A stretch of DNA of 64,000 bases from Prosthecobacter sp. (lineage in GTDB: Bacteria > Verrucomicrobiota > Verrucomicrobiia > Verrucomicrobiales > Verrucomicrobiaceae): contig NZ_JACSRD010000241.1 of assembly GCF_014879935.1 (NCBI RefSeq), positions 1-64,000 of the forward strand, given 5' to 3'. Under the pieces are notes generated by a model that was not told the DNA's origin, made no database searches, and worked only from the letters and a program-made list of their open reading frames with translations. Made by a program: the position numbers and the translations under genes. Of this stretch, positions 1-16,089 are shown piece by piece; position 1 is the first letter of the stretch; the number at the start of each line of letters is the position of its first letter.

Positions 1-780
1 CCTCTTGCCTTCATCAAGGAGGTCTTCGCGCAGGAAAGTGAGGTTTTGGCGGATGTCCGCCGGGATGGCTTCATCAAGCGGCGTGAGCGCCCACTCGGTG
101 GCGTTGGGGCCTTGGTCTTTGATGACCTCAATGCGGGGCTGGTTGGCGTCGGTTTTGATGGTGGCGAGAGATGGCGCCAGTGTCGGCAAAGGTGAGGAAA
201 GGTCTTTGATCCGAATGTTGCGGAACTGCACTGGCCCGCGCGGATGAGCTTGGAGGCCGATGAAGCCTGCGGGCTGACGAAGCCCGGTAAAATCGTTGAT
301 AACGGTGTCATTCAAACTGACCACAACCCTGTTCCCAGTGACGGTGATCTCCAAATCGTTCCAATCGGCTCGGAGCTTCACTCCCGCCTGAGCATCTTTG
401 AAATTGTAAATGGACCCGGTAGGTTGATCGTTTGCTCCTGGTTCAGTAATGGCGACTTCATTGCCTTGTTTCGATGGGATTGAGGCATCATTGCCTGGGT
501 TTTGAAAACGGAAGAAAACACCCGAGTTGTATTCACGACCCTTTCCTTGAAACTCGAGCCTCAATACGAAATCGGTGAAAGGTTGGGACGAAAACCATGA
601 AAAGCCGTTTCCTTTTGATGAAGACATCGTGGCTTCTCCGTTCGATACGCGCATTCCGCCTGGGCCAACATGACTCCAGCCACCGAGATGATCGTTATCG
701 AAGATGGGCGTGAATCCAAGCTCGACAGTGGCGTGAGCAAATGTTGAGAGAAGAATCAGGGAGGCGATGAGGTATTTCAT
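1..780 (-). CDS. Secreted DUF1080 (3-keto-disaccharide hydrolase-like) protein with shared C-terminal module, partial
   Basis: The first 260 residues are visible; the 3' end runs off the left edge of the window. A signal peptide (residues 1-17, ending FAHA) is followed by a DUF1080 concanavalin-like fold at about 20-195, with the family phrases NSGVFFRF, DWNDLEITV, INDFTG and GPVQFRNIRIKDL. From about 211 the shared module of this cluster begins; 48 of its first 49 residues match the paralogue at 2563-3690. DUF1080 proteins bind or cleave glycosides outside the cytoplasm; the substrate here is unknown. Two ECF-like promoter elements lie just upstream. The ATG at 780 is chosen because the signal peptide starts there. 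Confidence 0.88.
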   Translation of the reverse strand, partial: MKYLIASLILLSTFAHATVELGFTPIFDNDHLGGWSHVGPGGMRVSNGEATMSSSKGNGFSWFSSQPFTDFVLRLEFQGKGREYNSGVFFRFQNPGNDASIPSKQGNEVAITEPGANDQPTGSIYNFKDAQAGVKLRADWNDLEITVTGNRVVVSLNDTVINDFTGLRQPAGFIGLQAHPRGPVQFRNIRIKDLSSPLPTLAPSLATIKTDANQPRIEVIKDQGPNATEWALTPLDEAIPADIRQNLTFLREDLLDEGKR

Positions 781-793
781 AGAGCTGGGAGCA

Positions 794-820
794 GATTCGG
801 AAGATGAAGCGGGAGGTTGC
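794..820 (-). promoter_or_regulatory. ECF-like promoter element, copy 1 (proximal, DUF1080 gene 1)
   Basis: On the minus strand this reads GCAACC, 15 bases, CGAATC. The AAC in the upstream half, the CG in the downstream half and the 15-base spacer fit the general form of ECF sigma promoters. The downstream half lies 13 bases before the ATG at 780, so a transcript from here would have almost no leader. Confidence 0.6.
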
Positions 821-845
821 GGGGAAAATGTTGTTTTCAAACAGT

Positions 846-872
846 GATTCGCAGGCCGAGTGGGCGGGTTGC
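846..872 (-). promoter_or_regulatory. ECF-like promoter element, copy 2 (distal, DUF1080 gene 1)
   Basis: A second GCAACC-N15-CGAATC element in the same 103-base gap. Its spacer sequence differs from copy 1, but both hexamers and the spacing are kept. The sequence after the downstream half (ACTnTTTGAA) resembles that at the copy before the second DUF1080 gene. Confidence 0.65.
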
Positions 873-883
873 CAACAAAAACA

Positions 884-2509
884 TCACTTCACTGGCGGCG
901 ACTGCCGCAGGGCTTCGCGGAACTGGGCGTAGAGGGTGTCGAGGGTCTTGCGCACGGCTGCGGTGCGGTTGGCCCAGTCCACTTTGATGCTCTGTTTTTT
1001 CACATCGGCCTCGGCTCCCTGCTGCTGGCGCAGCGCGGTGCGCTGGGACTGTTCCCGCTGATATTGCGGCCAGCTCATCATGTAATTCCGCCGGGCATCC
1101 AGGGCCTGGGTGCTGGTCTTCTGATTCGCGTCCGCTTGTGCGGAGCGGTAGCCCGCCGTGACAAGGGTTTGTTCCCGTTCGTCCAGCGCGGCGATCATGG
1201 CGGTGCAGAGCTGGTGCGCGGCGCGGTAGGCGTCCTGGCCGGCCCTGGGCTTCTGCTTGTATTCGTCCAGCAAGTCTTCGCGCAGGTAGGTGAGGTTCTG
1301 GCGAACGTTCGGCGGCACGCCTTCGTCCAGCGCGGCGAGCACCCACTCGCTGGCGTTGGGCGCGAGCTGGGAGAAGGTTTCCAGCAGTGGCTGGTTGGGA
1401 TCGAGGGTGAGCGCAGCAGTGGGGGCGGCGGTGAGTTGTTGTGGAGCTGACATGGATGAAGCTCCAGCAGCAAGGGCGGCACCACCCGCTCCAATCACTC
1501 TCGGCGAACTGTTGCCTCCGGGTCTGGGCTCTCGTGCATAGGCATCAAATGCGGCGGCAATCCCTGCCTGGGCGGCGTTGCCCCGGTGAAGGATCATGCG
1601 GTTGGACAGCACGATGTCTTCCCCCTGCCTGAGGGTGATGCTGCCGTCCGGGGCCGACTTGTCGATGCTGCGCTGACCGAACGGATTGGCGGCGAAAAGT
1701 CCGTACGACCGGACATGCCAGCGGGTGGGATAGCGAAAACTGGACGGGTGATTGAGCATGGCGACCCCGACGACTTCCCCCGCCACCGGACCGGAGTAGT
1801 CACACCAACTGGCGGCTTTGCCCCATGCATTGTTGTTGGTGTCTCCATGGCTGTTGACGATGGTTCCGCCTTTCCCAGCATCGACGGCCATGCTTCCGGC
1901 GATCCGGATGCAGAAGCCGGCTTCCTTGGCATCGAAGACGACGACTTCCCTGCCGGAAGCCGTCAAGCGCAGGTCGGAATCAATGATCCGCGCACCCTGT
2001 CCGCCTGAGAATGTCATCCGATGCGCCATTTCGCAGACCTTGCGCCCGGCACCATCGAGAATGTCGCAAAGATCCACGATGACCGCCTTCGCCGCATCCG
2101 CGTGCAACTCCGCATACTTTCGATGCTGTATTTTTCCCAGCGTCGGAGCACCCTTGCCTTTTCCGGGCTGGTAAGTTGACGGCTCCTCCCATGTGTCCGC
2201 GCCTCCGATGTTCTGATGGGCAAAGTAGATGCCACGATGCTGCGGATGGTCCGTCGGATCGCCTGGGACGCTTTTCATGGGAAAGCCTCGCGTAATCTCA
2301 TGCCCGCCCGGCGCGATCACGTTTTTCAGGAAGGGTTTGTTGGCCTCGTTCACCACATACTCCGCCAGTGGTGCGCCCGCGTATTCGATGATGGCACCAT
2401 CTCCCGGTGTGGCGCGGATTGAGAAGCCTGCGGCGGCGTGAGACGAACTCGATGTCGTCCAGATCAGAAAGCAGGCGTATGGCAGAAGGCGAGAGCGGGT
2501 CGTTTTCAT
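884..2509 (-). CDS. Secreted PmoA-like (DUF6807) protein with shared C-terminal module
   Basis: This 541-residue protein begins at ATG 2509 with a signal peptide ending SSSSHAAA. Residues about 25-330 match the PmoA-like DUF6807 family, with the hallmark DHPQHRGIYFAHQ followed by GADTWEE, and later NSHGDTNNNAWG and ANPFGQ. The family is common in Planctomycetes and Verrucomicrobia beside sugar-catabolic genes; its biochemistry is poorly known despite the name. Residues about 370-541 are the shared module (NASEWVLAALDEG, VRQNLTYLREDLLDE, ALDARRNYMMSWPQY). The gene starts 53 bases after the upstream DUF1080 gene ends and has no ECF-like element of its own, so the two are probably co-transcribed. 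An upstream in-frame ATG at 2638 lies inside the previous gene and was rejected. Confidence 0.85.
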   Translation of the reverse strand: MKTTRSRLLPYACFLIWTTSSSSHAAAGFSIRATPGDGAIIEYAGAPLAEYVVNEANKPFLKNVIAPGGHEITRGFPMKSVPGDPTDHPQHRGIYFAHQNIGGADTWEEPSTYQPGKGKGAPTLGKIQHRKYAELHADAAKAVIVDLCDILDGAGRKVCEMAHRMTFSGGQGARIIDSDLRLTASGREVVVFDAKEAGFCIRIAGSMAVDAGKGGTIVNSHGDTNNNAWGKAASWCDYSGPVAGEVVGVAMLNHPSSFRYPTRWHVRSYGLFAANPFGQRSIDKSAPDGSITLRQGEDIVLSNRMILHRGNAAQAGIAAAFDAYAREPRPGGNSSPRVIGAGGAALAAGASSMSAPQQLTAAPTAALTLDPNQPLLETFSQLAPNASEWVLAALDEGVPPNVRQNLTYLREDLLDEYKQKPRAGQDAYRAAHQLCTAMIAALDEREQTLVTAGYRSAQADANQKTSTQALDARRNYMMSWPQYQREQSQRTALRQQQGAEADVKKQSIKVDWANRTAAVRKTLDTLYAQFREALRQSPPVK

Positions 2510-2562
2510 AAGGTCTTGAGGGAAACAAGGGGCAATGACGGATGCAGAACACGAAAGCAGGC

Positions 2563-3690
2563 TCATCGCATCGCTTCGCGAAACTGCCGGTAGAGGTTGT
2601 CGAGGTAGGAGCGCATCTGCGTGGCGCGGGTGGCCCATTCGACTTTGAGGCGTTCCTTCTTCACGTCGGCTTTGTCCGTTTCACTTTCCCGCAGGGCGGA
2701 GCGCTGGGACTCTTCACGGGCGTACTGGGGCCAGCTCATCTGGTAATTCCGGCGGGCGTCGAGGGCTTGATTGGATGTCGCTTTGTTCGCATCCGCCTGA
2801 GCTGACCGGTAACCGGCATTCACGCGGGCCAGTTCGCGCTGGTCGAGTGCTGCGAGGAGCTTGTCGCAGTAGTCGGAGGCTAGCTTGTAGGCCGCCGGGC
2901 TGGCTTTGGCGGTTTTTTTGCCTTCGTCGAGCAAGTCCTCGCGCAGGAAGGTAAGGTTCTGGCGAATGTCAGCGGGGATGGCCTCGCCCAGCGGCGTGAG
3001 CGCCCACTCGGTGGCGTTGGGGCCTTGGTCTTTGATGACCTCGATGCGCGGCTGATTGGCATCGGATTGAATCATCGCCAAAGGTGCGGCGGGTGAGGCA
3101 AAGGCTGCGGGGAGGTCTTTGATGCGGACGTTGCGAAATTGCACGGGGCCTTCTGCGTTGCTTTCTAGGCCGATGTAGCCGGACAGGCTTTTGCTCCCAG
3201 TGAAATCATTCACGGTTTGGCCATTGAGCTTCACTGTATAGCGCTGGCCGGAGACAGTAACTTCCATCTCGTTCCAGTCTCCAGTGCGGACGGCGTCCAA
3301 AAACGCAGGTTGAAGGCCCCAGATGGCACCAGTTGATCTGCCGAGTCCGCCGCTGGAGTGTCGAATGCCGACTTCATAGCGGCTTTCTGCCAACGCATTG
3401 ATTTCACCTGAGATGGAAGGGATGCGCAGCCACACTCCCGAATTGAACTCCGTTTTCATCCCTTTGAATTCGAGCTTCAAAGTGAAGTCGGCGAAAGACC
3501 TGCTGCCAAAGACAGCGACTCCCCATTTTGATGGAGAGAGACAAGTGGCGATTCCGTTTGCGATCTTCATCTGCCCCGGGCCGCTTTGCTGCCAAGCCGA
3601 AGCATTTGGTCCTTCAAATAGCGAAACAAACCCAGGCTCCACGGCAGCATGGAGTGAAGTGGCGAAGAGAATGGAGAGGAGTGCTTTCAT
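2563..3690 (-). CDS. Secreted DUF1080 protein with shared C-terminal module
   Basis: 375 residues. The signal peptide is about residues 1-15 (ending SLHA). The DUF1080 fold spans about 18-193, with FNSGVWLRI, DWNEMEVTVSG, VNDFTG and GPVQFRNVRIKDL. The shared module covers about 208-375 and includes GPNATEWALTPLGEAIP, the RQNLTFLREDLLDE stretch near 243-256 and ALDARRNYQMSWPQYARE at about 309-326. Start ATG 3690 was chosen because the signal peptide begins there; the longer frame to 3795 crosses the promoter element at 3717-3743. It is a paralogue of the protein at 1-780. The likely role is binding or processing of a sugar derivative outside the cytoplasm, which is an inference from the family. 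Confidence 0.88.
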   Translation of the reverse strand: MKALLSILFATSLHAAVEPGFVSLFEGPNASAWQQSGPGQMKIANGIATCLSPSKWGVAVFGSRSFADFTLKLEFKGMKTEFNSGVWLRIPSISGEINALAESRYEVGIRHSSGGLGRSTGAIWGLQPAFLDAVRTGDWNEMEVTVSGQRYTVKLNGQTVNDFTGSKSLSGYIGLESNAEGPVQFRNVRIKDLPAAFASPAAPLAMIQSDANQPRIEVIKDQGPNATEWALTPLGEAIPADIRQNLTFLREDLLDEGKKTAKASPAAYKLASDYCDKLLAALDQRELARVNAGYRSAQADANKATSNQALDARRNYQMSWPQYAREESQRSALRESETDKADVKKERLKVEWATRATQMRSYLDNLYRQFREAMR

Positions 3691-3716
3691 GGGAGAGGAG
3701 TTCAAGTTCAAAGAGT

Positions 3717-3743
3717 GATTCGCAAAGCGAGCGGCAGGGTTGC
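3717..3743 (-). promoter_or_regulatory. ECF-like promoter element, copy 3 (DUF1080 gene 2)
   Basis: GCAACC-N15-CGAATC on the minus strand, 26 bases before the ATG at 3690. It is followed by ACTCTTTGAA, as at copy 2. Confidence 0.68.
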
Positions 3744-3761
3744 AGCGGACGAAAACTTTTT

Positions 3762-3836
3762 CACCGCAAGTTGGGATAGCCGCATAGCACGGCATGCAGA
3801 ACGGTTTTTTCTGTGGTTATCTCGTCTCTTGCGGTG
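3762..3836. repeat. CACCGC-type imperfect palindrome, copy 1
   Basis: Arms CACCGCAAG (3762-3770) and CTTGCGGTG (3828-3836) flank about 57 bases. The arms resemble those of the elements at 13249-13328 and 31898-31974, which also begin CACCGC. It lies between the kinase stop and the promoter of the second DUF1080 gene, so it may also act as a transcript end. Confidence 0.5.
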
Positions 3837-3857
3837 GGTGACTGGATTGGGAAGAGT

Positions 3858-5642
3858 TCATCGCCGCAAGGCTTCACGGAACCTGGAGTAGAGGGTGTCG
3901 AGGCTGCGGCTGAGTTTGGCGCTTTGGGCGGCCCAGGCGACTTTTTGGGCTTCGCTGGCCAGGGCGGTGCGGGATTGGTTTTGTTGGGCGAGGGCGCTGC
4001 GTTGATCGCCTTCGCGGGCGTATTGCGGCCAGCTCATCATGTAGTTGCGCCGGGCGTCGAGGGCCTGGTTGGTGTGGGTTTGGTTCGCGGCGGCCTGGGC
4101 ATCGCGGTAGCCGGCGGCGACACGGGCGAGGTCACGCTCGTCGAGAGCGGTAAGGAGGGCCTGGCAGAGCTGCCAGCCGGCGCTGTAGGCGGGAATGGGG
4201 GCGGCGGGTTTGGACTTGCCTTCATCGACGAGATCTTCACGCAAGAGTGTGAGGTTCTGGCGAATGTCGGCGGGCACGGCTTCATCAAGCGGGGCGAGCA
4301 CCCATTTCATGGCGTTCACTGACTGGGCTTTGAGGATGTCGATGCAGGGGGGAGCCGGTTCGGCGGCTGGAGGCGTCGGGACTGGGGCGGGAACCGGCTC
4401 CTGTGGCAGTGGTCGCTGAGGTGTGGTCACTGCAGCCGTCGTGGGAACAGGCTTTGGTTCCGTTTTGGGGGGCACGGGCTCGGGCTTCACCTCCGGCGGT
4501 TCGCGGGTGGGTGGTGGCATGGGCTGCGTGATAGCGGGAACGGATTCAGGCGGTGGCGAGGCTGCTGTCTGTCGGTCCTTGTTGCCAAAGAGGATGGCGG
4601 TTCCCCAGCCGAGTCCGAGAATCAGCAGGGCGAGGGCTGCCCATGTGAGTGCCTCGAAAGCAGAGCGGGTCTTCTTGGGCGGCGGTGCTTTCGGTTTGGG
4701 AGCACGGACGGGATGCCGCGGCGCGGGCGCCGGCTGCGGCGGGCGGGTGGTTCGGATGCTGCCCACGGCGTCACGCAGCTCGCTGACACGCTGGTAGCGG
4801 CGCTCCGGCTCCTGGCGCATGGCTTTGATGACGACCTCATCCAGCCGGGCATCGATGTGGGATTTGATGGAAGGCAGGTCAAAGGCTCCCTGTGGGCGTG
4901 TGCCCGTCAGCATCTCGTAGAGCATGACACCGAGAGCGTAGATGTCGGCGCGATGATCGGCTTTGCCCTGCCACTGTTCGGGTGCCATGTAGTCGGGCGT
5001 GCCCATGACGGCATTCGTGGCGGTGAGCTGGCTATGGATGGAGGAAAGCGGGCGGGCGAGGCCGAAGTCGGCCAACTTTGCCCGGCCATCGCGGGTGATG
5101 AGCACATTGGCGGGCTTGATGTCGCGATGCACGACGCCCTGCGAATGCGCGTAATGCAGCGCCTCACAGATCTGCATGGTGAGTTCCAGCGCCTGATCCG
5201 GTTCCAGCCGCTGACCGTGCAGGAGGTGCGCAAGGTCGGTGCCATCGACGAACTCCATGACGAAGTACAAGTGCCCTTGGCTCGTCTGCCCAAAGTCGAA
5301 GATGGCGACGATGCCCTGATGGCTGAGGCTGGCGAGCGTCTGTGCCTCGCGCTCAAAGCGGGAGGTAAACTCCGCATTCGCCGAAAACTCCGCCGGCAGC
5401 AGCTTGATGGCCACGGGACGCTTCAGCGAGGCTTGTCTTCCTTTGTAAACCGCCCCCATGCCTCCACGACCGATGAGTGCCTCGATCTGATACTGGGGTA
5501 GCATTTCCGCCAACTGTTCCGGCGTGGGCGGCTCCCACGGCGCGGCGGGTGTCGTGCCCGGCACCCCTTCCAAAGCTCCGCGAATCAGATCGCTGGCGGG
5601 ATTTCCAAACAGAGGATCGTCTTGGGGAGGGAAGTCGGACAT
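3858..5642 (-). CDS. Membrane Ser/Thr protein kinase with shared C-terminal module as predicted ectodomain
   Basis: 594 residues. A Hanks-type kinase domain spans about 52-300: glycine loop GRGGMGAVYKG (58-68), lysine in VAIK (80), catalytic loop HRDIKPAN (D174), DFG (D192), APEQW, and DIYALGVMLYEMLTG. All expected catalytic residues are present, so it should be active. A proline/lysine-rich juxtamembrane stretch leads to one transmembrane helix at about 331-352, then a long Pro-rich linker (360-432), then the shared module (434-594; MKWVLAPLDEAVP, RQNLTLLREDLVDEG, ALDARRNYMMSWPQYARE). With the kinase inside, the module would lie outside the membrane, where the three secreted proteins carrying it would also be. 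The sigma-factor gene ends 68 bases upstream, which suggests the kinase controls it. Confidence 0.93.
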   Translation of the reverse strand: MSDFPPQDDPLFGNPASDLIRGALEGVPGTTPAAPWEPPTPEQLAEMLPQYQIEALIGRGGMGAVYKGRQASLKRPVAIKLLPAEFSANAEFTSRFEREAQTLASLSHQGIVAIFDFGQTSQGHLYFVMEFVDGTDLAHLLHGQRLEPDQALELTMQICEALHYAHSQGVVHRDIKPANVLITRDGRAKLADFGLARPLSSIHSQLTATNAVMGTPDYMAPEQWQGKADHRADIYALGVMLYEMLTGTRPQGAFDLPSIKSHIDARLDEVVIKAMRQEPERRYQRVSELRDAVGSIRTTRPPQPAPAPRHPVRAPKPKAPPPKKTRSAFEALTWAALALLILGLGWGTAILFGNKDRQTAASPPPESVPAITQPMPPPTREPPEVKPEPVPPKTEPKPVPTTAAVTTPQRPLPQEPVPAPVPTPPAAEPAPPCIDILKAQSVNAMKWVLAPLDEAVPADIRQNLTLLREDLVDEGKSKPAAPIPAYSAGWQLCQALLTALDERDLARVAAGYRDAQAAANQTHTNQALDARRNYMMSWPQYAREGDQRSALAQQNQSRTALASEAQKVAWAAQSAKLSRSLDTLYSRFREALRR

Positions 5643-5667
5643 GCTTCAAGAAGGGTTTCAGAGAGCA

Positions 5668-5694
5668 GATTCGGAAAGGCGGGCTGCCGGTTGC
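5668..5694 (-). promoter_or_regulatory. ECF-like promoter element, copy 4 (kinase gene)
   Basis: GCAACC-N15-CGAATC on the minus strand, 25 bases before the kinase ATG and within the sigma-kinase gap. The kinase part is unrelated to DUF1080 proteins, so this copy argues against the motif being only a by-product of DUF1080 gene duplication. Confidence 0.7.
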
Positions 5695-5710
5695 ATGCCA
5701 GATCGAAAAA

Positions 5711-6445
5711 TCAGCAGCGCGGATTCATCAGCTCCCGCAGCTCGGCGGTGACGGCCTCGGGGGTGGGATCATCCAGCGTGGCTGCCACCTGTTCGCGGAT
5801 GAGCTGCTGACATCGGGCACGCAGGCGGGAGATGTCGCTTTTCAGCGTGCCCTCGGGGCGGCCGAGTTCCGCCGACAGCTCCGCGAGCTTGGCATCGCCT
5901 TTCCCAGTGATGAATGGGGCCAGCGCGGCAAAGAGGGCGGCCAGTCCGCGCTGCTCGTAGTCGGCACGGAGCTGCCGCATGGCGTTGGTGACCACTGTTT
6001 CCATCCACTGGCGTTGGAAGGCCACGACGGGCGTGGTCTCGTCCACGGGCTCTGCGAGGAGGGCCTGAGTCTCGCTCAGATCGGCCATGCGGGCCACCTG
6101 GCCGGCTCCACGTTTCCGGGCCATGTCGTGGCGGTGACGGTCGATGAGGAATCCCTGCAGCTTGGTGATCAGGAAGGCGCGCAGCTTCACTTTGAGACAT
6201 GACGCATCCACAAAAGCGTTTTTGGCGAGCAGGTGCTCGAAGAAGGCCTGCTTCAAATCCTCCGCTTCTTCGATGGCGTGGCCCTTTCGAAGAATGAAGG
6301 CCACGACTGGCCGTTCATAGAGGCGGCAGAGCTCGTTCAGCGCCTGATCCGAGCCGGGGAGACCCTCCGCCACGGCGAGACGCACCATGCTCCACGCCGT
6401 GGGCGGAAAAGCGGGTGCCGCTGACTGGGGAGCGGAGGAAGTCAT
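5711..6445 (-). CDS. ECF-like RNA polymerase sigma factor
   Basis: 244 residues. A sigma-70 region 2-like part is visible at about 30-100 (LNELCRLYERPVVAF, EDLKQAFFEHLL, KVKLRAFLITKLQGFLIDRHR). A region 4-like helix-turn-helix sits near 190-225 (KLAELSAELGRPEGTLKSDI, then SRLRARCQQLIREQV). It lacks regions 1.1 and 3, as ECF factors do, and belongs to the divergent type often found beside Hanks-type kinases in Planctomycetes and Verrucomicrobia. A known parallel is EcfP/PknT of Vibrio, where phosphorylation switches on the sigma factor. It is the first gene of the cluster and the obvious candidate to read the four GCAACC-N15-CGAATC elements. I found no such element before this gene itself. Confidence 0.82.
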   Translation of the reverse strand: MTSSAPQSAAPAFPPTAWSMVRLAVAEGLPGSDQALNELCRLYERPVVAFILRKGHAIEEAEDLKQAFFEHLLAKNAFVDASCLKVKLRAFLITKLQGFLIDRHRHDMARKRGAGQVARMADLSETQALLAEPVDETTPVVAFQRQWMETVVTNAMRQLRADYEQRGLAALFAALAPFITGKGDAKLAELSAELGRPEGTLKSDISRLRARCQQLIREQVAATLDDPTPEAVTAELRELMNPRC

Positions 6446-6591
6446 CGCGCCGGGCCTTTAACAACATTTGCTGGCCGGTGGCTAGATGAAATCCCCCCGG
6501 ATCAGCAGATTGTTGCCTCGATCCTTGGGCGAAACCGGAAGATGAGCCGGTTTGAAGCTTCCCGCATGAGGAGGGCGGGAGGGCGATGTCG

Positions 6592-7170
6592 TTAATCGTC
6601 GCCGTCTCCGGCGGAGATGTTGCCGTAGAGCTCGGGAAAGCGGCGTTCGAGGGACTTTGGCGTGATGTAGCCGATGAGCTGGGCCTCATGCCAGTCGGCG
6701 AGGCCCCAGTACTCGTGGGGGAAGGCCATGATGACGGCGGCGCAGGTGGGCATCTTCGGGATGTTCGCACGGGCGAGGATCTTTTCGGCGAAGTCGTGCA
6801 TGCCGGGGTTGTGGCCGAAGATCATGGCGTGATGCCAGCTCTCATCGAAGGCACGCATGAGGTCGAGGATGCGCTCCGCCTCGGCGAGGTAGAGTCCGGA
6901 TTCGAGCCTGAGGTTTTCCACGGGGAGCGAGAGCGTCTCCCGCACGACCTGTGCCGTGGTGAGCGCCCTCAAGGCGGTGCTGCTGACGAGGTGGTCGGGA
7001 ACGGGCAGCAGGGCAGGGGAGCCATTCCCCCCGAAGTAGGTGCGGTGCAGAAAAGTGGCGACTGCGGGTGCGGCCCGCTTTCCACGGTCGTTCAGCGGCC
7101 GATCATGGTCCGCGAGCCCAGGCTGTCCCCAGCTGGACTTGGCATGGCGCATGATCGTGAGGTATTTCAT
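6592..7170 (-). CDS. SixA-like histidine phosphatase
   Basis: 192 residues from ATG 7170 (MKYLTIMRHAKSSW). The RHA motif carries the phospho-accepting histidine of the phosphoglycerate-mutase-like phosphatase superfamily, and the RHAKSSW variant is typical of the SixA branch. DRPLNDRGKR, SSTALRALTTAQ and the second catalytic histidine in IFGHNPGM follow in order. SixA dephosphorylates phosphohistidine proteins in E. coli; the target here is unknown. A longer frame upstream runs through the intergenic repeat at 7207-7352 and was rejected. Confidence 0.87.
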   Translation of the reverse strand: MKYLTIMRHAKSSWGQPGLADHDRPLNDRGKRAAPAVATFLHRTYFGGNGSPALLPVPDHLVSSTALRALTTAQVVRETLSLPVENLRLESGLYLAEAERILDLMRAFDESWHHAMIFGHNPGMHDFAEKILARANIPKMPTCAAVIMAFPHEYWGLADWHEAQLIGYITPKSLERRFPELYGNISAGDGDD

Positions 7171-7206
7171 TTCGAGCGAAGAGCGGAGGGCGGAGGGCGG
7201 AGGGAT

Positions 7207-7352
7207 GAAAATGACGAATGACGAATGGCGAATGACGAATGAATGACGAAGCTCCAATCAACGAAAGCGGCGATGTTGCACGCGTCCGGTGGCGTTGAGG
7301 CATTCGGCATTGGGGGTTCGTTCGTCATTCGGATTTCATCATTCGTCATTTG
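7207..7352. repeat. ATGACGAATG-type repeat pair, copy 1
   Basis: The left arm (7207-7250) is a run of imperfect ATGACGAATG / GGCGAATG units. The right arm (7301-7352) holds the reverse complement, CATTCGTCATTCGG and CATTCGTCATT. A GA-rich tandem (GGCGGAG units, 7181-7204) lies beside it. Related copies are at 17580-17664 and 31637-31662. The element fills most of the gap between two genes. Confidence 0.6.
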
Positions 7353-7386
7353 CCAGCGCCGCTGACACAAAGCGTGCCGCAGCACG

Positions 7387-8493
7387 TCACACGGCGACTT
7401 TCTCCAGTTTGATTGGGTAGGTTTGAAAAGCGTTCCACTGGCAGACGATGAGATCACCAGTGTCGAGCACGCAGACATCGTGCCCATGGTCAAAGACACG
7501 CTCAGCCTGCATGAGCGGCTTCAATTTGCCGTCTTCATACACAGGTTCGGTGCCGCCGGGGGCGCTGACGACCTGGTTTTTCGCGTCGAGGATGACGGTG
7601 AAGCCGCTGGGGTTCTGAGGGAGCTTGTTGATGTCGGGCGTTTTGGACCAGCAGACGCCAGCATAGAGCTCCTGGCCGGCGATGACGGGACGACAGACCA
7701 TGGCGCCGGGCACGGGCAGGGTTTCGAGGTGTTTGCCGTCGAGGGTGAAGCGCTGGAAGCAGTTGTCCGCGCGTGAGGTGACGATGACTGTGGCTTTGTC
7801 GGCGCCGTTCCGGGTGTCGATGGCGATGCCGTGGGCGTTGTTGAGGCGCTGTTCCGCAGGAACGCCGTCCTTGCCGCCGAAGCGCTGGATGAACTTGCCG
7901 CGAGCATCGTAGCGCAGCACAAACTGCGAGCCGTAGCCGTCGGCGACGTAGATGTCGCCGTTCGGTGCGATGGCAGTTTCGGTGGGATTGAAGACCATGT
8001 CCGGCTCGTAGGCTCCGACACTCATGGGATGGCTGATGGAGAAGATTTCTTTGCCCGTGAGATCGATTTTCGTGATGCGGCCGGTCTGACGATAGCCGCC
8101 GCTGCCGCTCTTCCAGAGGCCGCTGTCGGTGACGAAGAGGAATTCCTCGCCGTTTTCATTCGAGAGCGTCAGTCCATGGCCGCCGGGCCACACGCTGCCC
8201 CAGGAGTCGAGGATGGTGCCATCGGGCTTGAAGATGAGCATCTGGTTGTCCCAGTGGTCGCCGATCATGAAGAGGCGGCCGTCTTTGACCTGGACCATCT
8301 CGTGGCAGTTCAGGATGGGATGGTGGCGGCCCTGGCCGGCGGGCACCCAGTCCTTGTTCACCTTGTAGCGGAACGATCCGTGCCCGATGACGACGTCCTT
8401 CTTCGGATCGGGAGCGGCACGCAGCGTTTCAGTGAACGTGGCTGCCGCGGCGGTGCCCAGGCCGGCGAAGAGAAAGTGGCGTCGTGTTTTCAT
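7387..8493 (-). CDS. Tat-exported NHL-repeat (six-bladed propeller) protein
   Basis: 368 residues starting MKTRRHFLFAGLGTAAAA, a twin-arginine signal. The mature part has repeated propeller phrases: GHGLTLSNENGEEFLFVTD, TAIAPNGDIYVADGYGSQFV, NNAHGIAIDTRNG, and a last strand VCVLDTGDLIVCQW. Such NHL proteins in Planctomycetes and Verrucomicrobia are usually annotated as 6-bladed propellers or peptidylglycine monooxygenase-like proteins; no catalytic residue can be assigned here. The ATG at 8493 is chosen because it places the RR motif at the N-terminus. It is downstream of the hybrid histidine kinase with a 42-base gap. Confidence 0.8.
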   Translation of the reverse strand: MKTRRHFLFAGLGTAAAATFTETLRAAPDPKKDVVIGHGSFRYKVNKDWVPAGQGRHHPILNCHEMVQVKDGRLFMIGDHWDNQMLIFKPDGTILDSWGSVWPGGHGLTLSNENGEEFLFVTDSGLWKSGSGGYRQTGRITKIDLTGKEIFSISHPMSVGAYEPDMVFNPTETAIAPNGDIYVADGYGSQFVLRYDARGKFIQRFGGKDGVPAEQRLNNAHGIAIDTRNGADKATVIVTSRADNCFQRFTLDGKHLETLPVPGAMVCRPVIAGQELYAGVCWSKTPDINKLPQNPSGFTVILDAKNQVVSAPGGTEPVYEDGKLKPLMQAERVFDHGHDVCVLDTGDLIVCQWNAFQTYPIKLEKVAV

Positions 8494-8535
8494 GCGAGTG
8501 GTCAACCTTTGTCCCAAGCACGGTCACGCGACTTT

Positions 8536-10194
8536 TCAATTCCGTTTCATCATCGTGGCGACGCGATGCACGGTCTGCGTGAGTTCGCCGGCCTCGTAGG
8601 GCTTTGGCAGCACGCCGACGAAGCCACGCTCCAGGAAGACCATCTGCACCTCCTGGGTGACGCTGCCGCTGGTGCAGACGATGCGTGCCTCAGGATCGAG
8701 GTGAAGGATCTCAGCGGCCGTTTCGGTGCCGTTCATGCCGCCGCGGAGGGTGAGGTCCATGAGCACGACGTCGGGCGGGGTGCCGGTGCGGAAGAGACTT
8801 TGATAGATCTTCACGGCATCCTGGCCGTTGTCGCACTGGACGACCTCGTAACCGCAGCGGGTGAGGATCATGTTGGCCACTTTGCGCAGGTCGTCCTCGT
8901 CATCGACGATGAGAACCTTGCCCTTGCCGTGCTTGAGCGGAACAGGGGCCGCATCGGCGGGACTGAGGGGCTTGGTGCTGCCGGAACCTTCCGCAGCAGG
9001 CAGATACACACGGAACTCCGTGCCGACGTTCGGGGTGGAGGTCACGCGGATCTCGCCGCCCATCTCATCGATGAAGCGTTTGCAGGTGGTGAGGCCGATG
9101 CCGTTGCCATCCGCCTTGGTGGTAAAGGATTCGCGGAAAAGACGGCCCAGGTTTTCCCGGGCGATGCCGCAGCCACGGTCGCGCACGACGAGCAGCACAT
9201 GCGGTCCCGGCTTCAACCGGCCATCGCCCGTGCCGCCGACCATGTGGTTGTGCGCCTCGACATCCATGTAGCCGCCGCGTGGCATGGCCTGGATGCCATT
9301 CATGACGAGGTTTTGCAGCACCTGGCTGAGTTTCACCGGATCAGCCAGGGCGAGGCGCAGGTTGTCGTCCTGACGCACGCACACGTGGACGTTCGAGCCG
9401 GCGCCGGCGAATTCCACCGTGTCGCGCATCAGGGCGGAAAGATCCGTGGGCTCGTGCTTGCGGGGCACCGCTTTGGACGCGGTGACGACCTGGGAGGTGA
9501 ACTGCTTCGCGCGCTTCAGACCGGCAAACACAGCCTGCAATTCATGCGCGAGCGCGGGATGCTCCTGCACCTGCTGAATCAGTGCGGACAACCGCACGGT
9601 GACGGGACCGAGAAGGTTGTTCACGTCATGAGCGATGCCCTGGGCGAGAGCCGCCAGGTTTTCTTTGCGCAACTGCACCGATTGCGCGTCCAAATCTTCC
9701 ACAGCAGGCTTCGGGTCGGCCTTGGCAGGCGCATTCGGCTGCGCCGGACTGATGAGAATGGTGAAATTGAGCAGCTTGCGCAGGCTGTTGAACACCGCCC
9801 GCACCCGCCACTTGCAGGGGATGGGAGCCTGGGTGCGCAGGCTCTGCAAAGCGCACTCACATTCATGGCAGCCGCCGTTTTGCACTGCCTGCTGGAGACT
9901 GGCCTGCAACGTGGTGGCATCCTTGTCACCAGCCACGAGATCGTTCAGGCCCAGGCCACGCAGGCCGGTTTCCGGGTCAGCGCCAGCCAGCATCGCGGCG
10001 GCGGCGTTGCTGAAAAGGACCTTGGGACCGCATTTCGGGTCACTGGGCTCGCTTTCGACGATGACCACGCCGTCAGTCACCTGATCGAGAGCCACCCGGA
10101 GGTAGTAGTTGGCCACTTTGAGCTGCTCCAGGCTCTGCTCCATCTCGGCGACCGAGGCGGGAGAGGAGTTGGAAGCAAGTGGCGCAGTGGTCAT
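8536..10194 (-). CDS. Soluble hybrid sensor histidine kinase / response regulator
   Basis: About 552 residues. In order: a PAS-like sensor part (LRVALDQVTDGVVIVES, FSNAAAAMLAG); a Cys/His cluster CHECEC; HisKA with GIAHDVNNLLGP (His about 189); HATPase with QNLVMNGIQA, VRDRGCGI and GNGIGLTTC; and a C-terminal receiver (VLIVDDEDDL, phospho-acceptor in VVLMDLTL, KPYE near the end). There are no transmembrane helices, so it senses an internal signal. CHECEC could bind a metal or act as a redox site; this is speculation. An in-frame ATG at 10227 is possible, but it lies in the AT-rich likely promoter, so 10194 is preferred. Confidence 0.88.
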   Translation of the reverse strand: MTTAPLASNSSPASVAEMEQSLEQLKVANYYLRVALDQVTDGVVIVESEPSDPKCGPKVLFSNAAAAMLAGADPETGLRGLGLNDLVAGDKDATTLQASLQQAVQNGGCHECECALQSLRTQAPIPCKWRVRAVFNSLRKLLNFTILISPAQPNAPAKADPKPAVEDLDAQSVQLRKENLAALAQGIAHDVNNLLGPVTVRLSALIQQVQEHPALAHELQAVFAGLKRAKQFTSQVVTASKAVPRKHEPTDLSALMRDTVEFAGAGSNVHVCVRQDDNLRLALADPVKLSQVLQNLVMNGIQAMPRGGYMDVEAHNHMVGGTGDGRLKPGPHVLLVVRDRGCGIARENLGRLFRESFTTKADGNGIGLTTCKRFIDEMGGEIRVTSTPNVGTEFRVYLPAAEGSGSTKPLSPADAAPVPLKHGKGKVLIVDDEDDLRKVANMILTRCGYEVVQCDNGQDAVKIYQSLFRTGTPPDVVLMDLTLRGGMNGTETAAEILHLDPEARIVCTSGSVTQEVQMVFLERGFVGVLPKPYEAGELTQTVHRVATMMKRN

Positions 10195-10224
10195 GGAATA
10201 TCCGGTCAATTCCGTTCCATTTAG

Positions 10225-10296
10225 CAATCTACGATAATTAATACAACTTTAATTTTTGATATTCTGAGTTTTTCTGACTCCCACTTTTGAGAGTGA
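10225..10296. promoter_or_regulatory. AT-rich divergent promoter region
   Basis: This 70-base stretch is far richer in A and T than its surroundings (runs such as ATAATTAATACAACTTTAA and TTTTTGATATTC). It lies between the divergent histidine kinase and rpmI genes. It probably carries promoters for both, but I cannot assign a convincing -35/-10 pair. Confidence 0.4.
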
Positions 10297-12200: not shown

Positions 12201-13226
12201 ATGCTCTCCCAACTCGATTCCCTCAAAACCGACGCCCTCGCCGCGCTTGTCGCCGCGCAGGATGAAGCCGCGCTCGAAGCCGTGCGTGTGAACTTCCTTG
12301 GCAAAAAAGGCAGCGTCACCGCGCTCAGCCAGGGCATGAAGGACGTGCCCGTCGATCAGAAAAAGGAAGTCGGTGCCAAACTGAACGACGTGCGCACCGC
12401 CATCACCGACGGCATCGAGTCAAAGAAACTCGCACTGCAGGCCGCGCTCGATGCAAAAGCCGTCGAAGGCATCGACATCACGCTTCCGGGCCGTCCGGGC
12501 ACCGGCAATGGCGCTTTGCACCCGCTCACGCAGATTCGCGATCTCGCCATCCGCACGCTGCGTCGTCTCGGCTTCATTTTGGCCGAAGGACCGGAGATCG
12601 AGACCGAGTTTCACTGCTTCGATGCGTTGAACACACCCGCTGATCACCCCGCCCGCAACGAGAAGGACACCTTCTACCTCCCCGATGGCCGCCTGCTGCG
12701 CACGCACACCTCCAGCGTGCAGATTCGCACGATGGAAGCCGCGAAGTCGCTCCCCATCCGCATCATCGCACCCGGCGCCGCGTATCGCCGCGATGAGATC
12801 GACGCCACGCACCTCAGCGTCTTCAACCAGCTCGAAGGCCTCTACGTCTCCAACGACGTCAGCCTCGCCGATCTCAAAGGCACGCTCGAAGCCTTCTTCC
12901 GCGAGATTTTCGGCCCGAACACCGCCGTGCGCTTCCGCCCGCATTTCTTCCCCTTCACGGAACCGAGCTTTGAGATCGATGTGAAACTCGAAGCGAAGGG
13001 CAAAGACGCTCGCTGGATCGAAATCGCCGGCTGCGGCATGGTTGACCCCGCCGTCTTCACCGCCGTGAACAAATCCCGCGGCGACAACCTCTTCGATCCC
13101 GAGACCACCACCGGCTTCGCCTTCGGCCTCGGCCTCGACCGCCTCGCGATGATCCTCCACAGCATTACCGACATCCGTCACCTCATCGAAAACGACGTCC
13201 GCTTCCTCCAACAGTTCGCCGCTTAA
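12201..13226 (+). CDS. pheS: Phenylalanine-tRNA ligase alpha subunit
   Basis: 341 residues starting MLSQLDSLKTDALAAL. After the N-terminal coiled coil (LGKKGSVTALSQGMKDV) comes the class II catalytic core: GALHPLTQI, GPEIETEFHCFDALNTPADHPAR (motif 2 region), DTFYLPDGRLLRTHTSSVQ, GAAYRRDEIDATH, and the motif 3 region AFGLGLDRLAMIL near the C-terminus. Length and order are standard. It forms an alpha2-beta2 enzyme with PheT, encoded 135 bases downstream. Confidence 0.97.
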   Translation: MLSQLDSLKTDALAALVAAQDEAALEAVRVNFLGKKGSVTALSQGMKDVPVDQKKEVGAKLNDVRTAITDGIESKKLALQAALDAKAVEGIDITLPGRPGTGNGALHPLTQIRDLAIRTLRRLGFILAEGPEIETEFHCFDALNTPADHPARNEKDTFYLPDGRLLRTHTSSVQIRTMEAAKSLPIRIIAPGAAYRRDEIDATHLSVFNQLEGLYVSNDVSLADLKGTLEAFFREIFGPNTAVRFRPHFFPFTEPSFEIDVKLEAKGKDARWIEIAGCGMVDPAVFTAVNKSRGDNLFDPETTTGFAFGLGLDRLAMILHSITDIRHLIENDVRFLQQFAA

Positions 13227-13248
13227 AACTTCATGGACGCTCGATTTC

Positions 13249-13328
13249 ACCGCAGAGGAGCAATGAGGCAGAGGACGCAGAGAAATTCATAAAACTCTGC
13301 ACTCTCTGCTCCTCCGCCCCTCTGCGGT
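13249..13328. repeat. CACCGCAGAGG palindromic repeat between pheS and pheT, copy 2
   Basis: The outer arms ACCGCAGAGG (13249-13258) and CCTCTGCGGT (13319-13328) are perfect. Inside, GAGG, AGAGGACGCAGAG and CTCTGC units continue the pairing to a centre near 13290. It sits inside the pheS-pheT gap and would form a long hairpin in the mRNA. Sequences of this CCGCAGAGG type are widespread in environmental bacterial genomes. Confidence 0.7.
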
Positions 13329-13361
13329 AAATCCGAACGTCTCACCGATCTCTTTCCAGCT

Positions 13362-15758: not shown

Positions 15759-15765
15759 ATTCTCT

Positions 15766-16089
15766 TCAAAAGGGCAAATCGCCTTCTTCCAGCGGTCGGC
15801 GTGAGTGATGTCGCACTGATAAGATGACAACGCCCTTGCCTGTGATGGTGAAAAGAATGCGAAACTGGCCCCGACGTTTGCGGAAGAGCAACTGGCGGAT
15901 CTCCACAGGAAATCTTCGGCTTTCCGGGGCCAGGCGATGGCGTTGTGGTTCTTCAGCCAGAGATTCCACCTTGGAGATCAGCTCTTCCCGCCAGCGCTCG
16001 GCTGAGAGAGGGGCGCGGGATTTGATCCAAAGATAGACATCCTCCAGCTCCTGCTGCGCGTGCGCTGTGTAGGCGACATCGAAGCTCAT
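15766..16089 (-). CDS. ParE/RelE-family toxin
   Basis: 107 residues. Typical ParE start MSFDVAYTAHAQQELEDVYLWI, then RWREELISKVESLAEEPQRHRLAPES, and a core ending in the family strand pattern RRGQFRILFTITGKGVVILSVRHHSRRPL. It overlaps the upstream antitoxin by 4 bases (ATGA), so the two are co-translated. ParE toxins poison gyrase and RelE cuts mRNA at the ribosome; which applies here cannot be told. Its stop lies 7 bases from the convergent pheT stop. Confidence 0.87.
   Translation of the reverse strand: MSFDVAYTAHAQQELEDVYLWIKSRAPLSAERWREELISKVESLAEEPQRHRLAPESRRFPVEIRQLLFRKRRGQFRILFTITGKGVVILSVRHHSRRPLEEGDLPF

Follow-up and report, generated by a model that had tools for sequence, protein, structure and literature searches.

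A helical module shared by a predicted transmembrane kinase and its putative secreted neighbours behind an ECF-type sigma factor in Prosthecobacter

In the window, a stretch of 64,000 nucleotides from Prosthecobacter sp. (contig NZ_JACSRD010000241.1, here C205), a Ser/Thr kinase and three neighbouring proteins end in one module of about 160 residues, behind a gene for a sigma-70-like (ECF-type) factor. Judging from sequence comparisons, we see an even chance that these genes form a sigma–kinase signalling operon with exchangeable secreted co-receptors that would dock through the module; the ligand, the docking, the phosphorylation and the target genes of such an operon are putative.

Genes of the locus

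The genes described here lie on the minus strand. The sigma factor P0005 (5711..6445) is the first gene of a probable operon, and its stop codon is separated by 68 bases from the start of the kinase gene P0004 (3858..5642). The first-pass annotation had placed an ECF-like sigma factor directly upstream on the same strand, and this stands: P0005 is sigma-70-like, matching TIGR02937 (NCBIfam) with E 2.8e-7 and 30.3 bits, below the cut-off of 42.9 bits, and Sigma70_r4_2 (Pfam) with 14.9 bits (cut-off 25.7). P0004 matches PF00069 (Pkinase; Pfam) at residues 51–265 (E 2.2e-52, 178.5 bits, cut-off 31.7), and a Kyte-Doolittle scan gives one 19-residue peak of hydrophobicity (2.03 at residue 335), with a predicted transmembrane helix at approximately 4584..4640. 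By its domain cut-off and one predicted helix, P0004 is a Hanks-type, single-span Ser/Thr protein kinase, in which the kinase domain is followed by the helix, a Pro-rich linker and the C-terminal module; the kinase profile matches 77 places in this genome.

The neighbours are the DUF1080 protein P0003 (2563..3795), the DUF6807 protein P0002 (884..2638) and a second DUF1080 protein, P0001 (1..840), which is cut by the contig end. From the positions of Met residues, their likely true starts are at 3690 (MKALLSILFATSLHAAV), 2509 (MKTTRSRLLPYACFLIWTTSSSSHAAAG) and 780 (MKYLIASLILLSTFAHAT), respectively, and the first two of these resemble signal peptides by eye. PF06439 is matched by residues 42–212 of P0001 (E 1.4e-33, 117 bits) and residues 55–226 of P0003 (E 1.6e-29, 103.7 bits; cut-off 26.8 for both), and PF14100 (DUF6807) by residues 84–364 of P0002 (E 5.3e-56, 190.6 bits, cut-off 27; all Pfam). 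DUF1080 and DUF6807 proteins are sugar-related, which for PF06439 is also conveyed by its Pfam name, 3-keto-disaccharide hydrolase. The genome holds 47 PF06439 matches versus seven module matches, and most of its DUF1080 proteins are without the module.

The window does not break off arbitrarily at position 1: contig C205 ends there. Leftward extension in search of more copies, proposed in the first-pass annotation, leads to contig C275, which probably adjoins C205 by synteny with the relative G030; it starts with residues 120–160 of one module copy, followed by two complete copies. In the kinase/neighbour comparison that also covers G125 (see below), no SHD1-like part common to the C275 kinase and its neighbour was seen.

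The shared module

The claim that four adjacent proteins share one C-terminal module is borne out by BLASTP, with 58% identity over 166 residues for P0002/P0003 (E 1.7e-64), 59% over 152 for P0002/P0004 (E 8e-53), 56% over 160 for P0003/P0004 (E 2.5e-55), 70% over 43 for P0001/P0004 (E 1e-17) and 54% over 61 for P0001/P0002 (E 7e-18); on these scores the likeness is far beyond chance. Whole-protein comparisons at E < 0.01 find C-terminal parts only, in agreement with the claim of unrelated N-terminal parts; the exception is the DUF1080 pair P0001/P0003, alike along its length, in which the reported 48 of 49 identical residues (DANQPR...DEGK, one D/G difference) are confirmed. In a search of the genome, the copies lie at 3861..4343 in the kinase (E 3.8e-88; coordinates from alignment A3), 2566..3045 in P0003 (E 4.0e-90) and 902..1384 in P0002 (E 9.5e-90; coordinates from A3), and the first 44 residues of the P0001 copy lie at 1..132. 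Alignment A3 has 19 module rows and leaves out two partial copies of this genome, a truncated copy from G069 and the fragments of G062 and G003; the copy of G535, found later, is also outside A3 and is included in alignments A4 and A5.

No Pfam or NCBIfam model matches the module at cut-off. A known domain was sought in Pfam, NCBIfam, PHROGs, PADLOC and PDB sequences, with chance-level matches only (best: IcmQ 0.035, a phrog 0.085, PDB 5hzd E 0.18). PADLOC gave no match at E 0.1 for three module copies or P0005; P0004 was compared with the defence models for likeness to the PD-T4-6 anti-phage kinase outside the generic kinase domain, and among the 25 listed of its 37 matches, no best stretch reaches the module (residues 434–594), PDLC04039 ending at residue 414. 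A role as a C-terminal sorting signal was rejected because the module sits mid-protein in the kinase of G111 and close to the N-terminal end in the protein of G580.

Structure prediction, also proposed at the outset, was carried through: the module comes out as a domain of four helices that carries a conserved insertion. The insertion holds the most conserved stretch of the module alignment, ALDARRNYxMSWPQYARE (mean 0.89), and has low AlphaFold confidence in two copies, for which the shallow alignment (19–20 rows) may be the sole cause; it is missing from three kinase–DUF1080 fusions (n = 3 kinases, two genomes). Foldseek searches with the module gave a best E of 0.18 and none at or below 0.001, and the best VIA match (Z 10.0) is inside the range given for helical bundles. 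The matches in Foldseek and VIA are four-helix bundles of unrelated proteins (the 5-HT3 and nicotinic receptor transmembrane bundles, BAR domains and McpS), at a level to be expected of any helical model.

Sigma factor and distribution

In a quick tree (in which two paralogue rows are the same ORF twice, from overlapping loci in C6), the sigma factors of this genome, G034, G037, G111 and G004 group in a single clade (SH-aLRT 100) that covers five of the six genomes with a module-bearing kinase. The clade sigmas are 57–73% identical to P0005, paralogues in its own genome at most 37%. G034, another species of the genus, has the sigma, a kinase with the module (STK-m) and four further module proteins; G111, of another family, has the sigma, two module proteins and a kinase with both the module and an FGE domain (STK-m-FGE). 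On this comparative evidence the sigma–kinase–partner association is inherited, which upholds one part of the first-pass reading, that of a signalling system and no chance cluster.

Orthologous sigma factors are without a module match in six of 11 genomes (G030, G041, G050, G057, G125 and G209), so the sigma does not need the module. The contigs of G050 and G209 end before the operon could be read, contig C652 of G037 ends beside its kinase, and in G057 pieces resembling DUF1080 and laminin-G come after the sigma gene, the stretch read containing no kinase. A comparison of three upstream regions gave no convincing alignment of a conserved promoter ahead of the sigma gene.

The first-pass annotation had reasoned that the system idea would fall if the module were a common domain usually found away from kinases and sigma factors. 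As worded, that objection does not apply: the module is rare, with matches in at least nine of 386 genomes of the order and at least three of 387 of a phylum sample (lower bounds, at most nine candidates being scored per genome); its tie to kinases is partial. Eleven genomes carry it, at 25 places in total: in six it belongs to a kinase encoded after a sigma gene, in three it occurs without a kinase in the stretch read, and in two (G062 and G003) it is present as fragments only.

Kinase ectodomains and their neighbours

At E 1e-4, 8 of 149 pairings of a kinase ectodomain with one of its own neighbours give a match, versus 11 of 2971 other pairings. Twenty-one loci were entered, C148 was dropped for too short an ectodomain, L123 was not entered, and neighbours were defined mechanically as same-strand ORFs of at least 100 residues. 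Within the Prosthecobacter genome, the ectodomains of three kinases (window, C243 and C217) match a neighbour, one of them through the widespread FGE domain; the common part at C217 also matches other kinases, and at C243 the nearest sigma homologue is 3.5 kb off on the opposite strand. With 3 of 20 ectodomains, part-sharing is not supported as a general rule for the sigma–kinase loci of this genome.

Domain exchange, fusion and module replacement

DUF1080 is carried by separate module proteins in this genome, G034 and G111, and inside the kinase (kinase–DUF1080–module) in both G037 kinases and the G004 kinase, above the Pfam cut-off in all of these separate and fused proteins. Two more neighbours have counterparts fused to kinases in relatives: a protein of C275 and G030 matches the end of a G041 kinase at 56 and 62%, and a neighbour in G125 resembles a portion of the G004 kinase (33% over 338 residues). 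In G125 the sigma is orthologous, the genes are ordered as in G111 and the kinase is 72% identical to the G111 kinase over residues 2–317, but the kinase ectodomain and a neighbour have another module in common (42.5%, E 1.8e-22). As read from these alignments, G125 is a matched replacement of the shared module on kinase and neighbour, in a single case.

A module tree of the 14 long closest rows, with groups named by domain after the first tree was seen, does not unite the DUF1080 partners (AU p 2.6e-41) or the small-domain partners (AU p 6e-54) in one clade, and a weak test speaks against one clade of kinase modules (p 0.034). By these tests the branching of the module trees does not mirror the N-terminal domains, a pattern of mix and match.

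The module might instead be a common binding or anchoring domain, for instance one that attaches to peptidoglycan or to the outer membrane at its inner face, and its carriers independent proteins drawn to the same place or ligand with no mutual contact. It occurs without a kinase in the stretch read in G009 (almost alone), G580 (ahead of leucine-rich repeats) and G535 (ahead of an unassigned C-terminal stretch), so kinase docking cannot be its sole use; the VIA alignment also lists the McpS ligand-binding domain, at a Z of 7.9 that is inside the range of generic helical bundles. However, common anchorage leaves unexplained both the different module common to the G125 kinase and its neighbour and the fusion of partner domains to the kinase in relatives, and we consider it unlikely.

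That the arrangement is a mosaic by-product of tandem duplication and of recombination through a repeated module, the neighbours being functionally unlinked, is a good deal less credible still. Module copies have identical DNA stretches of 20–53 bases in common, and their N-terminal domains are shuffled, both as such a history would have it. Against it, the copies are under purifying selection as estimated from sequence (dN/dS approximately 0.03–0.19 for five module pairs), including copies with different N-termini: a near-identical G034 pair of this kind has dN 0.027 and dS 0.85, a dS that also speaks against explaining its likeness by recent gene conversion alone. Nor does a mosaic account for the fact that kinase and partners alike have kept the module in two families, or for the matched replacement in G125.

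Proposed mechanism

In the co-receptor reading, the kinase P0004 would span the inner membrane and, as its predicted topology suggests, expose its module to the periplasm, and the neighbouring proteins would be exported. The partners would place sugar-associated or other binding domains (DUF1080, DUF6807, a laminin-G/DUF1080-like domain and small unnamed domains) ahead of the common module. The module most likely mediates docking or mixed oligomerisation, by which the secreted sensor domains would be mounted on the kinase; ligand binding to the mounted sensors would alter kinase activity, and the kinase would transfer phosphate to the sigma factor of its operon or to a regulator of that factor, thereby activating the sigma. 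A more specific form, in which a kinase with a private sigma takes interchangeable, module-docked secreted sensors, and the module is replaced jointly on kinase and partners to give operons with mutually exclusive plugs, is put forward tentatively, at somewhat less than even chances.

As to the ‘response’ half of the first-pass reading, the partners look like putative sensors or co-receptors more than a putative output regulon. Were they sigma-induced degradative or binding outputs, whose module competes with or titrates the kinase and so switches the response off, their position in the window, after the sigma and kinase genes and on one strand, and their sugar-related domains would be accounted for; the DUF1080–kinase fusions of relatives, read alongside the available part of the Planctomycetota survey, fit an input better than an output (PMC11032199), and we regard such feedback as improbable.

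Relation to known systems

Planctomycetota and their relatives have many bacterial Ser/Thr kinases, and we know of no input for most of these. Single-span kinases with periplasmic DUF1080 or FGE (sulfatase-modifying) domains occur in Planctomycetota and have the kinase architecture of the window, and the G037 and G004 kinases correspond to their DUF1080–kinase type with the module added; unlike in these kinases, DUF1080 in the window is on separate proteins, tied to the kinase only via the common module. In the part of the survey available, DUF1080 is the most abundant among domains found only in the periplasm on Planctomycetota Ser/Thr kinases (PMC11032199).

The locus also resembles pairs of an ECF43 sigma factor and a Hanks-type kinase (PknS/EcfK of Xanthomonas and PknT/EcfP of Vibrio), in which the sigma likewise adjoins a single-span Ser/Thr kinase with a periplasmic domain. 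In contrast to ECF43, for which we know of no module-sharing partners, the window locus has partners with the kinase’s periplasmic module. As far as the excerpted accounts go, ECF43 sigma factors have a phospho-accepting Thr in region 2.2 and are without the acidic DAED motif there (PMC8999054, PMC13147305). P0005, by contrast, reads EEAEDLKQ in region 2.2 and so keeps acidic residues (EAED), the last two motif positions across the 11 orthologues being ED in nine, EE in one and QD in one. Kinase adjacency agrees with membership in ECF43 and region 2.2 does not. The Thr of TPxxAxQRxW is invariant in 11 of 11 orthologues and is a candidate phosphorylation site; by position it lies between the sigma 2 and sigma 4 regions, like T106 in the linker of EcfK, as given in the portion available (PMC13147305). 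ECF59, ECF61, ECF62, ECF217 and others are described as groups in which, as in this locus, a kinase replaces the anti-sigma factor and the acidic motif is kept or similar, and the excerpted description of kinase-linked groups other than ECF43 has no common kinase/partner module (PMC8999054).

In this locus, sensor domains supplied in trans by secreted partners appear recognisable from sequence alone. If true, the inputs of orphan kinases would be readable from modules shared with adjacent genes, and the arrangement would be a bacterial counterpart to receptor/co-receptor pairing, testable with small helical domains.

A shared C-terminal module in the probable window operon

The window starts at the end of contig C205. 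Its first genes, all on the minus strand, encode a sigma-like protein (5711-6445), the Ser/Thr kinase (3858-5642), one complete DUF1080 protein (2563-3795), the DUF6807 protein (884-2638), and another DUF1080 protein truncated where the contig ends (1-840). In the three complete module proteins, the last 160 residues are 56-59% identical in pairwise comparisons (E 1e-52 to 1e-64), and the cut copy is matched over 43-61 residues (E ~1e-17), which confirms the first-pass annotation that four adjacent proteins have one module in common. No Pfam or NCBIfam model matched the module at or above cut-off. AlphaFold prediction on two different copies gave a four-helix core of high confidence (10-residue blocks mostly 80-96) and, in both, an insertion at about residues 80-127 with blocks below 65. 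Conservation peaks within this insertion, at ALDARRNYxMSWPQYARE (mean column identity 0.89 across 15 rows; 0.63-0.84 elsewhere); the insertion is absent from the three kinase-DUF1080 fusions. An insertion that is conserved yet looks unfolded would fit a binding motif that becomes ordered in a complex. The kinases scanned have a single hydrophobic segment C-terminal to the kinase domain; the own-genome partners (the secreted-type, module-bearing neighbors) have signal-peptide-like stretches from internal Met residues (by eye) and hydrophobic scores below the 1.6 threshold, whereas partners in two related genomes (G034 and G111) score above it.

A module profile search matched the genome at seven sites, of which four lie in C205 and three at the beginning of contig C275. 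The first residues of C275 are residues 120-160 of a module copy, followed by two complete module proteins; this contig also encodes a second kinase, with sulfatase-modifying (FGE) domains. In the relative G030, a single run comprises counterparts of the two genes upstream of the window sigma (93% identical over the part compared, and 79%), a homolog of the window sigma (84%), an FGE kinase (80% to the C275 kinase across its N-terminal 376 residues), and a following protein (62% to its C275 counterpart). This arrangement supports the view that C275 continues C205. A further suggestion from it is that loci with the same sigma gene may have or lack the module-bearing block as a whole.

Sigma factor and orthologous loci

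The sigma-kinase pair is ordinary in this genome, since 19 of 32 homologs of the window sigma are followed on their own strand by a kinase domain at most 400 bases away; the kinase profile has 77 matches in all. The special feature of the window locus is the common module, not this pairing. A quick tree that included 29 rows of own-genome paralogs (two of which are one ORF) places the sigmas from the window genome, G034, G037, G111, and G004 in a single clade (SH-aLRT 100). These are 57-73% identical to the window sigma; the own-genome paralogs reach at most 37%. Orthologs of the window sigma (E 1e-70) are present in 11 of the order's 386 genomes, with a module match in five and none in six (G030, G041, G050, G057, G125, and G209, two of which have contigs too short for reading the operon). 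The earlier proposal of one system is well supported by orthologous loci: judged from these sequences, the sigma and the module-kinase appear to be one inherited system in which the pairing is not obligate.

ECF43 sigma factors lack the acidic motif in region 2.2 and are phosphorylated on a Thr there (PMC8999054, PMC13147305). Membership in ECF43 by this feature was ruled out because acidic residues persist in region 2.2 of the window-type sigma. EcfK is activated also via T106, which lies in its interdomain linker (PMC13147305). The Thr of TPxxAxQRxW, invariant in the window-sigma clade (11/11), is likewise expected at a linker position, and is a candidate phosphorylation site only.

Distribution of the module

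Module matches were identified in 7 of the 68 family genomes, 2 of 74 of the family of G111, at least 9 of 386 of the order, and at least 3 of 387 of the phylum sample; the last two counts are lower bounds, with a maximum of nine candidates scored per genome, and the samples overlap. The distinct genomes number 11 (own, G003, G004, G009, G034, G037, G062, G069, G111, G535, and G580). Two short peptide patterns scanned against contigs (≥3 kb) of 84,980 species returned five loci, titled Verrucomicrobia, Verrucomicrobiaceae, Akkermansiaceae, or Lentisphaerae.

Six of the 11 genomes (own, G034, G037, G004, G111, and G069) have a kinase that bears the module, all with a sigma gene upstream of a module-bearing kinase, directly so except in G111, where two secreted-type genes intervene. 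G037 encodes two such kinases, the contig of the second stopping beside it; in G069, the module copy is interrupted by a stop and the sigma is more distant (37%). G009, G580, and G535 encode module proteins with a hydrophobic N-terminus (the scan covered one of the two in G009), and the stretches read there contain no kinase; G062 and G003 have module fragments only. At two loci from two genomes (L031, 6937-7692; L060, 8835-9554), small proteins with a hydrophobic N-terminal region consist of little more than the module, and here too the stretch read contains no kinase. Decayed forms, among loci L056 (G069), L156 (G057), L032 (G062), and L035 (G003), include a truncated module, lone module fragments, and a sigma gene with laminin-G-like and DUF1080-like pieces after it; these suggest that the system has been lost repeatedly.

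Separate and fused putative sensor domains

DUF1080 is on separate proteins with a C-terminal module in the window genome, G034, and G111, and inside the kinase, followed by a short module form at the end, in both G037 kinases and the G004 kinase; every one of these DUF1080 domains exceeds the Pfam cut-off. For the laminin-G-like partner in G034, both matching Pfam models score below cut-off, and the small-domain partners tested had no Pfam matches. Two further neighbors show the same separate-or-fused relation: the protein that follows the kinase in C275 and in G030 resembles the end of a G041 kinase (56% and 62%), and a G125 neighbor matches a portion of the G004 kinase (33% over 338 residues). 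Chiefly because orthologous sigma loci include both fused and separate forms, we infer that the partners would work together with the kinase. DUF1080 as a periplasmic domain of single-span kinases has been described in Planctomycetota (PMC11032199).

A domain ending in WYLPAPFARTILDIVDVYRKAG or a close variant is on a separate protein in two genomes, at L028 (5956-6969) and L153 (7642-8664), and a WYLPAPFARTILDIVDVYRKAG-type domain is fused at the kinase end in a third genome (L155, 5008-8553); a Pfam search of the L028 protein gave nothing above cut-off.

N-terminal exchange and module replacement

Trees of 14 long modules resolved three groups, each mixing N-terminal types. A single module clade was rejected for the five DUF1080 partners (p 2.6e-41) and the four small-domain partners (p 6e-54), and weakly for the three kinase modules (p 0.034); these groups were set by domain content after the first tree was seen, which the p values ignore. 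Two G034 modules with different N-termini are 94% identical, and, given their dN of 0.027 and dS of 0.85, the likeness looks maintained by selection, with recent copying the less likely cause. For the four remaining module pairs tested, dN/dS is ~0.08-0.19.

In G125, the sigma is orthologous (58%), the gene order is as in G111, the kinase is 72% identical to that of G111 over residues 2-317, and the present module was unmatched. The G125 kinase ectodomain and the preceding protein have a different 170-residue stretch in common (42.5%, E 1.8e-22 in a small comparison), at residues 603-775 and 58-225, respectively (L158, G125 C26:22000-38000, positions 2095-8742), behind the orthologous sigma. 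This matched replacement is a single case. The two non-kinase neighbors at L158 also have a 129-residue stretch in common (41%).

Within the window genome, 21 loci out of the 77 kinase matches, chosen near sigma homologs and including C275, were entered in an ectodomain test against same-strand neighbors within 6 kb. Kinase ectodomains matched their own neighbors in 8 of 149 pairs and the neighbors of other kinases in 11 of 2971 (E 1e-4). The own-neighbor matches come from 3 of 20 kinases: the window kinase, C217 (the FGE case), and C243, where the kinase stalk is also in two kinase-less membrane proteins and a short stretch in two more neighbors. Two of the 11 other-neighbor matches pair the window kinase with C275, which probably belongs to its operon. 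The C243 locus (L124, G000 C243:15000-31000) is a second case of kinase-neighbor sharing, unrelated to the window module: the kinase (8164-10263) and both kinase-less neighbors (13223-15283 and 15304-16001) have a common transmembrane helix and extracytoplasmic stalk domain (37% and 32%), and a zinc-ribbon-like start is also in at least one neighbor.

Implications for signaling

Sharing of a module between a kinase and its secreted neighbors was not found in the openly licensed papers searched on DUF1080, DUF6807, ECF factors, kinases, and Verrucomicrobiota. As the best mechanism, we infer that the secreted partners would serve as co-receptors that dock on the kinase. Kinase-linked sigma signaling is already known; the common, exchangeable module adds a variation to it.
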